From Chromera velia (taxonomy: Eukaryota; Sar; Chromeraceae), in NCBI GenBank assembly GCA_018398765.1, contig JAHBMJ010000531.1:1-45803 (forward strand): a DNA stretch of 45,803 nucleotides, written 5' to 3'. Positions 5,097 to 45,641 of the stretch are shown in pieces (position 1 is the first letter of the stretch; the number at the start of each line of letters is the position of its first letter). A model generated the notes under the pieces. The model saw nothing but the letters and a program-made list of their open reading frames with translations, did no database searches and had not been told where the DNA came from. Both the position numbers and the translations under genes were made by a program.

Positions 5097-8000
5097 ATGG
5101 TAGAATCGCCACATTGGAGGTGGCGAGTCTTCGCCCTTCCTCCACGATTGATGAATGTCTTTTTGTTATTGTTCGTGTTGGACATTTTTCTTCCAGTCTC
5201 ATCTGATGTTTCATTTTTTCTTTCGTTACGAGCACGGAGCTCACAACGACCACTGCGGGGGGCGACAACTTCTGTTTGTCCGAGGGAATGTGAATTTTTG
5301 GGAACTCTTTTGAAGGAGAAAGTACACTCTCAGTTGGGAATGACACCAGCACTATTGGAAGCAGAAAGCCCTGTGGGATTACAGAAGGCGGAGAGGTATT
5401 CGGACGAACTTGTTGTCCCCCACCCCGGGAACGTCTCCCCCTTCCTGCGCATTCCAGTGCGACGACTCGACTACGAGCTTTACAACCCGTTGCTCGACCA
5501 TTGCTATGAGTGCTTTAAGGAGTTTGCAGCAGCAATGTATTCTCCTATTGAGAGGTCGGTCCTCCGCACCGTCTTCTCGTTGAATTCTTGTGCGTGTCTC
5601 CTTTTCAACCTTTTCTGCTTTCAAGAAACACAAAGGAGACAGCAACGAACGTCTCCGCCAACACTGTCCAACGCGCACGCTATTCTTGTGATCAGGGAGG
5701 TCTGCCTGTTCGTGCCTTCTTTTCTGAACACAACCTCCCTTTTCCCGCCGCTGAAACAAAAGAGGAGACGGAGAAACACCTCAGCAACTGACTTCGTCTC
5801 TTCTTCTTCACGGACCCTCCTCTCTTCTTCCTTTGCCACCTTTTTGTGTTCTCTTCGTGCAGGCACGAAGCACGATGGAAGTCAGAGGATGCACTGCAAG
5901 ATTTTTTTCTCGCTTTGAAGGTCGGTACCGCGCTGAGTTGATGGCTGCCTCTGTATGCTTTCCACCCTTTCCCGTCTCGTCGCTATACGTTTATTGTTCT
6001 ATCCGTCACTCCCGCACCTTCCACTCTCTTTAACTCTACGGTGTGTGTCTCTGGGTGCTTGCTAATACCCGCGTGTATGTGTGTACCCACACACCTCTCT
6101 CTTCCTTCGTCTTTTTCCGTCGTTGCCTTGGAATTGGCGGTCTCGATTTCTCTGTACCCTCCTCGTCTCTCTGTCCTTTTATTCCTGTCTATCTTTTTTA
6201 TCCGTTCCTCCTTTCAATGCAGGGTGGAGCACTTGAAAAAGATCCCTTGGCGCGTTCTATCATGGACGTCAGTAGGTTCAACGGCTCAAAATGTGTGGCA
6301 GCAAAGAGGGGGGGTGTCCATCGGGCAGTGGGAGAGAGAAAAAAGAGGAAAGACAGGCGTGGGGGGGTGGATGGGTATGGGCAACACCCTTTGTGGTTCC
6401 GAGGTACCCATTTTCTCTCAGTTTGAGGTTCCGCCCCGTTTTGTCTTTGTGCGTGTGTCTGTCGGTCTGTCTAGAAAAAGAGGGAGAAGAAGAAACATAT
6501 AGTTTGTCCACGCAAAATCCGCCTGCCTGCCTGCCTGCGTGCCGGTCTGCCCCTCTCTTCCACTCGAAGGCAGACTCGAACGCCGAAAATCTCCTGCAAG
6601 AGCACAATACTCGTTCCTGGTTTCCAATGGACAGCCGTGTGTCGTCGCCTACTGCTTCTCTTTCACCCTCCCCCCGTGTTCCCTTTCTTCCTTTCTTTCG
6701 AACAAATCGACAAAAGACCCTCCCCCCCTCCCTCTCCCTGCCCCCCCCCCTGTCTGTGTCTGCAGGTTCGCCACGCAACTCCGAAGCTCGCAAGGGATCT
6801 GGAGAATGTCATGTTGATGGACGCCAAGATGCCGGATTTGCTTCGGAAGAAAGAGGTCAGAAGGGAAAAGGAAGGAAGAAAGAGAGAAAAAAAGGAAAAC
6901 GGGAAGGGAAAAGACGAAGAAAGGAAGGAAAGAAGGAGGGAAGAAGGAAGGAAAAAGAAAAGTGGACCATCAGGAGGCCATGACTGCAGTGCATAAGTTC
7001 GGCTGTCTTCTTTTCTCTCCAGTTGAAAGAAACAAGCAAAAGAGACTACACGCGGCATCCATTATCTTTTTATTTCTTCCTTCTCCACGAGCCCTCCCTA
7101 AACGCTTCCAACAAACTGTCCCCTTCCTTCCTCTCCCTCCTAAGACGTTCTCCCTCCCATCTTCTTGGAAAGTTCAGAGAATTTCTCCATTTTTCTCTTC
7201 CGTTGCCTTCGCGCTCATTTATGTGCATACATGTGTATCTGATACATCCATATGCGTATGTGTACACCCGTTTGCGGGTCCATTTCCTTCTGTGGTTGTG
7301 GTTGCAGTATGCCAAGATCAATGATGCGTTCAAGGCGTTCGAGGAGAAGAGGTTGAACAGAGAAGACAAACTCACAGAAGGCCTGACGTTCGAACAGAAA
7401 GTCGACCTCGATGAACTCATCCGGTCAGTCGACTAGTTTGTCAGCCTGTTAGTGAGTCTTCCCCTTTCACGTGAAAGGGGAAGAGAATGACCGTGCTGTC
7501 TGCACATCGTTAGGTTTTGGCCCAACTTTGTTTTTCGCTTCTTTTTGTTGCGCTGCTTGCCTCTCTCGCTCACTCACGAGAATTTTCCGATCTGCTCAGA
7601 ATATGTCCATCCTTCCTGTGAATCGCTTTTTCTTTTCCCCTTTGATCGGTCCTCTCTGCTTGCCCATACACTCAAGCACAGACAGGTGATGCCGTTAGAT
7701 GGACAACATAGGACATCGACGAACAGAAGAACGAGTGCGATATGATTCAAAATAGGGGTAGTCACAGATTCTTTTTCTCTGTTCTCCCTCTCTCTGAGTG
7801 AGCGTGTTGGGGGGTGCAGGTACGACGCCTACAAGCAGGAAGCCCGGGACAAGCGGGCGTTCATGGAGATGGAGGCGGTGAGGAGAACGAACAAGAATGT
7901 GGAGAGGATGAACCAGGTCCTGGCAGAGGACGATGTCCAGGCCTTCTTCGGTTAGTCAGTCAGTCAGTCAGTTGGCTTTTTCTTTCGGTGGCTGGCTGGG

Positions 8001-45641: not shown

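Follow-up and report, generated by a model that had tools for sequence, protein, structure and literature searches.

A 70-exon gene model ending in a plastid-type ribosomal protein S1 in Chromera velia

The locus and its exon chain

The window, by which we mean the whole stretch of DNA analysed, comprises all 45,803 nucleotides of contig JAHBMJ010000531.1 of the Chromera velia assembly GCA_018398765.1. Its forward strand carries, from position 5097 to 45641, a chain of exons that our curated model resolves into 70 exons with 14,845 coding bases, an open reading frame in 70 of the 70 exons, no stop and 4,948 residues. The exons were rebuilt without recourse to the list of an earlier note on this DNA. 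For gene finding, we trained a hidden Markov model on the window together with 20 other 10-kb loci, with long open frames as the only seeds; the acceptors that it learned resemble TGCAG, its donors are close to GTCAGT, and the exon chain emerged unprompted. A refined model of lower order, for which the single-gene path itself served as training data and which was left free to stop and restart, returned one gene of 76 exons (5340-45641); in the curation that followed, tiny and poorly supported exons were dropped and the 5' end was set by hand. The earlier note had read the same interval as a single gene of at least 71 exons and about 4,950 or more residues, and both the curated model and the free run recover essentially that gene. 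The predicted product, calculated from the spliced model, is acidic (pI 4.8) with a mass of at least 560 kDa (560.6 kDa for the modelled part). The features are as follows.

5097..5554, forward strand: exon 1; the start Met is the first ATG after an in-frame TGA (5088-5090); a hydrophobic leader (residues ~10-44) is followed by an Arg/Ser/Thr-rich, transit-peptide-like stretch (putative targeting)
5863-5920, 6223-6267, 6766-6855, 7308-7423, forward strand: exons 2-5, placed by phase and splice sites
7820-7950, 8419-8531, 8974-9072, 9539-9676, forward strand: exons 6-9, placed by phase and splice sites
9972-10055, 10301-10412, 10720-10734, 11146-11178, 11493-11537, forward strand: exons 10-14
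12041-12111, 12457-12649, 12865-13224, 13706-13905, 14552-14716, forward strand: exons 15-19
15234..16859, forward strand: exon 20, 1,626 nt, residues 843-1384, acidic
17224-17287, 17831-17860, 18259-18291, 18640-18702, forward strand: exons 21-24, short
19271-19373, 19864-19949, 20283-20369, 20678-20716, forward strand: exons 25-28, short
21158..22867, forward strand: exon 29, 1,710 nt, residues 1553-2122, bearing a long run rich in Asp and Glu
23273-23495, 23830-23904, 24511-24593, 24805-25025, 25285-25383, forward strand: exons 30-34
25450..25743: assembly gap (N) within intron 34 (25384-25967)
25968-26024, 26353-26558, 26915-26987, 27293-27451, 27665-27959, forward strand: exons 35-39
28228-28308, 28668-28700, 29107-29156, 29505-29581, 29960-30096, forward strand: exons 40-44
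30374-30540, 30849-31049, 31351-31533, 32015-32180, 32473-32635, forward strand: exons 45-49
32950-33067, 33419-33484, 33787-33918, 34321-34556, 34890-34989, forward strand: exons 50-54
35306..36798, forward strand: exon 55, 1,493 nt, residues 3257-3753
37161-37230, 37655-37789, 38006-38440, 38833-39810, 40075-40434, forward strand: exons 56-60, final part of the N-terminal extension before S1
40900..41102, forward strand: exon 61, residues 4414-4480, S1 domain 1
41450..42017, forward strand: exon 62, residues 4481-4670, S1 domains 2 and 3
42375..42431, forward strand: exon 63, last part of S1 domain 3 plus the tail LSTRELERNPGEM, by alignment to chloroplast S1
42692..42934, forward strand: exon 64, LRNP tail of S1 (to residue ~4700), then the beginning of the C-terminal tail
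43404-43484, 43919-43963, 44233-44426, 44779-44855, 45170-45236, 45571-45641, forward strand: exons 65-70, acidic C-terminal tail

The least certain end of the chain is formed by exons 2-9 (5863..9676). Taken alone, several of the short exons contribute little to the score, and for some boundaries a near-equal alternative exists, as at 26558/26562, 30315/30374 and 33918/33922 within exons 35-54. The exons at 10720-10734 (15 nt) and 11146-11178 (33 nt) are both multiples of three and hence optional with respect to phase; several of exons 21-28 are multiples of three as well. The introns are homogeneous in length (211-646 nt, median 351, none longer than 646 nt), and in the curated model 60 of the 69 end in the acceptor GCAG. 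The commonest donor, found in 21 of 69, is GTCAGT instead of GTAAGT or GTGAGT; since it often lies within CAGT repeats, the donor choice is ambiguous by 4 bases. T-rich composition on the gene strand characterizes 65 of the 69 introns, the four exceptions including 20717-21157 and 40435-40899; both lie at weak joins, and the former (44% A, 13% T) sits at the weakest one of the chain. A 54-base tandem repeat (3.1 copies, 97% matches) at 14291-14457 is intronic. At 45641, 162 bases before the contig runs out, the last exon stops with a donor, GTAGGT, so the gene is incomplete, its 3' end lying outside the contig.

Phase, chance and the case for a single gene

The earlier note had also stressed that exon follows exon in phase and with no stop, and this continuity holds up under several kinds of examination. 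All 24 of the 24 joins at which both flanking exons have a single open frame are in phase, a count that is not an independent test because the boundaries came from a phase-aware search. When the search was made blind to phase, 60 of 82 junctions were in phase, where one third would be expected; when each half of the window was read with parameters estimated on the other, the phase-blind counts were 9/12 and 13/20 (P ~0.004 each). The join across the N gap runs from phase 0 to phase 0. The forward strand scores 2,875.5 versus 73.6 for the reverse strand, a value that includes a real neighbour gene at 2526-4429, apart from which the opposite strand holds no comparable gene. A chance reading was rejected on the basis of ten control runs (the reverse complement, a mirrored copy and three block-shuffled copies of each half of the window), which scored at most 14.0 and yielded no long chain, versus 501.5 and 572.7 for the two real halves. 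Applied to both strands of the 20 other 10-kb loci, the refined model found seven genes scoring above 20 and none with more than 11 exons, which indicates that it does not string random sequence together.

Whether the chain belongs to one gene or to several was addressed by obliging the model to end the gene and begin another within each 500-base bin. A path existed in 79 of the 80 bins, and in all 79 the forced two-gene split was worse than the single gene, by 10.4-73.9 nats. The weakest margins are at 20.5-21.0 kb (10.4 nats) and 11.0-11.5 kb (10.7), followed by 30.0-30.5 kb (15.0), 12.0-12.5, 26.0-26.5 and 27.0-27.5 kb (15.5 each), 6.0-6.5 kb (16.5), 31.5-32.0 kb (16.8) and 17.0-17.5 kb (17.5); the margin just before S1, at 40.5-41.0 kb, is 18.0 nats. 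These margins are generous to the single gene, as the refined model lacks untranslated regions and had the single path as its training data; more broadly, our gene models were trained mainly on the gene under study. When free to end genes, the first, jointly trained model yielded three, at 5151-8121, 8400-9247 and 9416-45645, the third comprising 70 exons and encoding 4,738 aa; it favoured three genes over one by 21.4 nats (start at 5097) or 13.4 nats (start at 5151) of ~2,875, and its breaks all lie before 9.4 kb. Parameters estimated on the 3' half broke the 5' half of the window into four pieces (5875-9843, 11462-17313, 17871-20742 and 21412-25383), and the 3' half under 5'-half parameters was a single 37-exon gene (25851-45641). 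Models trained without window labels, on the 20 other loci only or on each half alone, did not recover the chain. A single gene from 5097 to past 45641 is well supported, not proven: every scorable split is worse, and what tempers the claim are the weak joins and the incomplete 3' end.

The plastid-type S1 unit and the chain around it

Residues ~4,426-4,720 constitute a nearly whole plastid-type ribosomal protein S1. Among PDB entries, the best match of this part is chloroplast S1 (E=2.3e-29, query positions 14-304), spanning all three domains; bacterial S1 proteins rank lower (9zcd, 3.6e-21; E. coli-type, ~1e-13), and the match to RRP5 is weak (3.5e-6). After the third S1 domain, the conserved tail LST.LE..PG.M.RNP of chloroplast S1 is present (LSTRELERNPGEMLRNP aligned to LSTKKLEPTPGDMIRNP). 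Exon 61 contains the point where the homology starts, at residue ~4426, and from there it continues in phase as far as exon 64. Pfam S1 by itself detects two stretches, and domain 1 rests on the full-length alignments. The best NCBIfam match is NF005639 (E=1.3e-34, positions 26-308 of 318), also PRK07400.1, a 30S ribosomal protein S1 that we take to be of the three-domain cyanobacterial type. Its bit score of 119.5 lies below the curated cut-off of 460, which a divergent eukaryotic member could well fail, as the model was built for prokaryotic genome annotation. The chain carries near its C-terminal end an S1 unit of ordinary size and plastid type, and a single gene ending in a plastid-type S1 is in our view very probable. 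In the earlier note the product had been put forward as possibly an undescribed giant plastid protein; given its C-terminal part, as identified by the matches to chloroplast S1 and NF005639, it is better regarded as a known ribosomal protein in giant form than as something wholly undescribed.

The assembly (177.8 Mb, 4,040 contigs, and possibly incomplete) contains the S1 family in 17 places, namely six on contig C4039, two in the window and nine elsewhere, on C2209, C2291, C200, C3320 and C2833; the match on C2209 is presumably eIF2-alpha. Used as a query, the S1 part of the giant matches only the window and C4039, so that neither this search nor those with the S1 family and NF005639 found a second plastid-type S1 in the assembly outside C4039. 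The contig C4039 is apparently bacterial: at 106,729-108,315 it encodes six S1 domains in one 581-aa open frame, which resembles a bacterial rpsA, the contig being a probable contaminant. Searched with NF005639, the assembly gives 135.8 bits for C4039, 59.8 for one exon in the window and 25.8, over 53 positions, for C200; that the apparently bacterial gene outscores the whole S1 part on this model (135.8 versus 119.5 bits) counts against our preferred interpretation. Two scans of genome contigs for S1 relatives that could enter a tree yielded none. Searches of the assembly for other markers gave 11 alveolin (IMCp) matches over the Pfam cut-off, on contigs C3597, C3119, C3542, C1022, C3718, C281 and C3285, which point to an alveolate, with the same search also positive in 1 of 14 bacterial and archaeal control genomes; plastid psaA/psaB were searched for in the assembly and not found.

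The ~4,410 residues in front of S1 resemble no family that we could recognize, in line with the earlier note, which had named none in the first ~4,400. With Pfam, run over all 4,948 residues, only S1 reaches the cut-off and nothing does in the N-terminal part; NCBIfam, run over four long exons, gave no match, and the PDB, searched at E up to 0.1 with exons 20, 29, 55 and 59 and residues 2123-3256, gave none for these five stretches. No EF-Ts family is among the Pfam matches up to E=0.1 over the 4,948 residues. Subthreshold hints to pPIWI_RE_Z (E=0.0032, 17.9 bits versus a cut-off of 25; 6.2e-4 for the exon alone), to AceK_regulatory and FlaC_arch (E ~0.09) and to others up to E=1 were taken as helical or coiled-coil noise. 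A repeat protein or repeat polyprotein was likewise rejected, the best self-BLAST E being 2.4 and none of the 81 chunks compared giving a hit. No paralogues were found in the genome for exons 20 and 55, the only match having 28% identity at E=2.43. A single-sequence structure model of exon 55 consists entirely of helices at low confidence, and its mean pLDDT of 41.5 makes it unfit for a fold search.

The sole strongly hydrophobic segment of the predicted protein lies at residues ~10-44 and is followed by a basic, Ser/Thr-rich stretch. Among 154 Met residues, only Met1 and Met19 are followed by such a leader-like stretch. The introns hold 21 leader-like candidates, which we attribute to chance; within 38441-40899, none could splice to exon 61, and the 2 of 21 able to splice to exon 62 would lose S1 domain 1. 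If S1 goes to the plastid, the giant's own N-terminal leader is the best candidate for the route. The gene at 2526-4429 on the reverse strand, divergent from the giant, also has an N-terminal leader, with a Met at 4429; its exons, spliced by hand, include an ELINGRLAM stretch resembling light-harvesting-like one-helix proteins, and Pfam Chloroa_b-bind matches with E=0.0029 and 18.6 bits, below the 22.3 cut-off. The plastid targeting suggested by the earlier note is plausible, given one putative N-terminal leader and a light-harvesting-like neighbour.

A probable giant S1 and its rivals

We consider the most probable explanation, at a rough probability of 0.6, to be that one nuclear gene, presumably transcribed as a single mRNA, encodes a plastid-targeted bS1 that is at least 4,948 residues long and whose giant N-terminal extension would act as a tether or scaffold. 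Binding of mRNA at the small ribosomal subunit is established for bacterial S1. The three S1 domains near the C-terminus would form a working bS1, predicted to bind plastid mRNA at the small subunit, as described for bS1 (PMC12787238), and the acidic, mostly helical and lineage-specific extension of ~4,410 residues would hang from that subunit, holding plastid ribosomes near sites of mRNA processing, near the nucleoid or near membranes. Even granted a single gene ending in a plastid-type S1, the scaffold role is possible at somewhat less than even odds.

The same exons could instead belong to two or more neighbours on one strand, with one or more large genes of unassigned function followed by a separate plastid S1 at ~40-45 kb. 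The low margins at 20.5-21.0, 11.0-11.5 and 40.5-41.0 kb, the four pieces of one cross-validation and the three genes of the first model all point in this direction, as does the intron 40435-40899, which is not T-rich and after which, in exon 61, the S1 homology first begins. We regard such an arrangement as unlikely, since every forced split scores worse, no gap longer than 646 nt is available for two untranslated regions and a promoter, and a separate S1 would be without a leader, none being found at the internal Mets or, compatible with exon 61, in 38441-40899. Alternatively, the product might be imported whole and cut in the plastid into an S1 of ordinary size and one or more other proteins. 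The S1 unit is indeed ordinary in size and nearly whole, and a precedent exists in the Chlamydomonas chloroplast EF-Ts with S1 domains, which is made as a polyprotein; against this, the N-terminal part has no repeated unit or spacer and no cut site was identified, and we judge cleavage of this kind quite improbable.

A further interpretation takes the protein off the ribosome altogether, as a plastid RNA-binding scaffold with borrowed bS1 domains that works, for example, in mRNA processing or in nucleoids. It draws on the divergence of the S1 part (119.5 bits versus a cut-off of 460) and on the acidic extensions on both of its sides. The main objection is that this is the only plastid-type S1 found, without which the plastid ribosome would have no S1; the objection is weakened if the assembly is incomplete or if, as may be the case, some plastids lack S1. 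This possibility, too, appears unlikely to us, and the plastid-targeted bS1 on the ribosome is the reading that we retain.

With chloroplast bS1 (30S ribosomal protein S1, chloroplastic; PDB 5x8p chain 8), the Chromera protein shares the three tandem S1 domains and the LST.LE..PG.M.RNP tail; it differs in being at least 4,948 aa long, S1 being preceded by ~4,410 residues and followed by ~230 or more, extensions that are also absent from the NF005639 family. The 19 chloroplast S1 entries in Table 2 of PMC11641769 range from 155 to 523 aa; the protein lies far outside this range, although size is not what defines homology. A comparable case is chloroplast EF-Ts, a nucleus-encoded plastid translation protein with S1 domains in a longer chain; the same table gives 844-1,770 aa for the S1-domain EF-Ts class, mostly labelled mitochondrial, 953-1,123 aa for the chloroplastic entries and 1,013 aa for the Chlamydomonas protein (PMC11641769 Table 2). 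The Chromera product, unlike these, reaches no EF-Ts family and carries three bS1-type domains at its C-terminal end. As a long S1-domain protein it also recalls RRP5 and similar proteins, from which it differs in the weakness of the RRP5 match and in exceeding 3,347 aa, the length of the longest among the 3,263 S1-domain eukaryotic proteins surveyed in Table 1 of PMC11641769. The open-access literature, to which our search was confined, yielded no description of a giant plastid S1. The gene may already exist as an unnamed model in a public Chromera annotation.

As a rule, ribosomal proteins are small and vary little in size, and to our knowledge no larger one has been reported. If the transcript is confirmed, this product of Chromera velia, a photosynthetic relative of malaria parasites, would be exceptionally large for a ribosomal protein. 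Tentatively, it would place an S1 of more than half a megadalton on the plastid ribosome, with a lineage-specific helical arm organising plastid translation in space, and related giant forms of S1 may occur in other chromerids and in apicomplexan plastids. A tenfold N-terminal extension of bS1 would, if true, represent an extreme lineage-specific growth of an organelle ribosome, would test the import of a 560-kDa chain through the membranes around a complex plastid, and would be relevant to translation in the plastid lineage to which the apicoplast also belongs.
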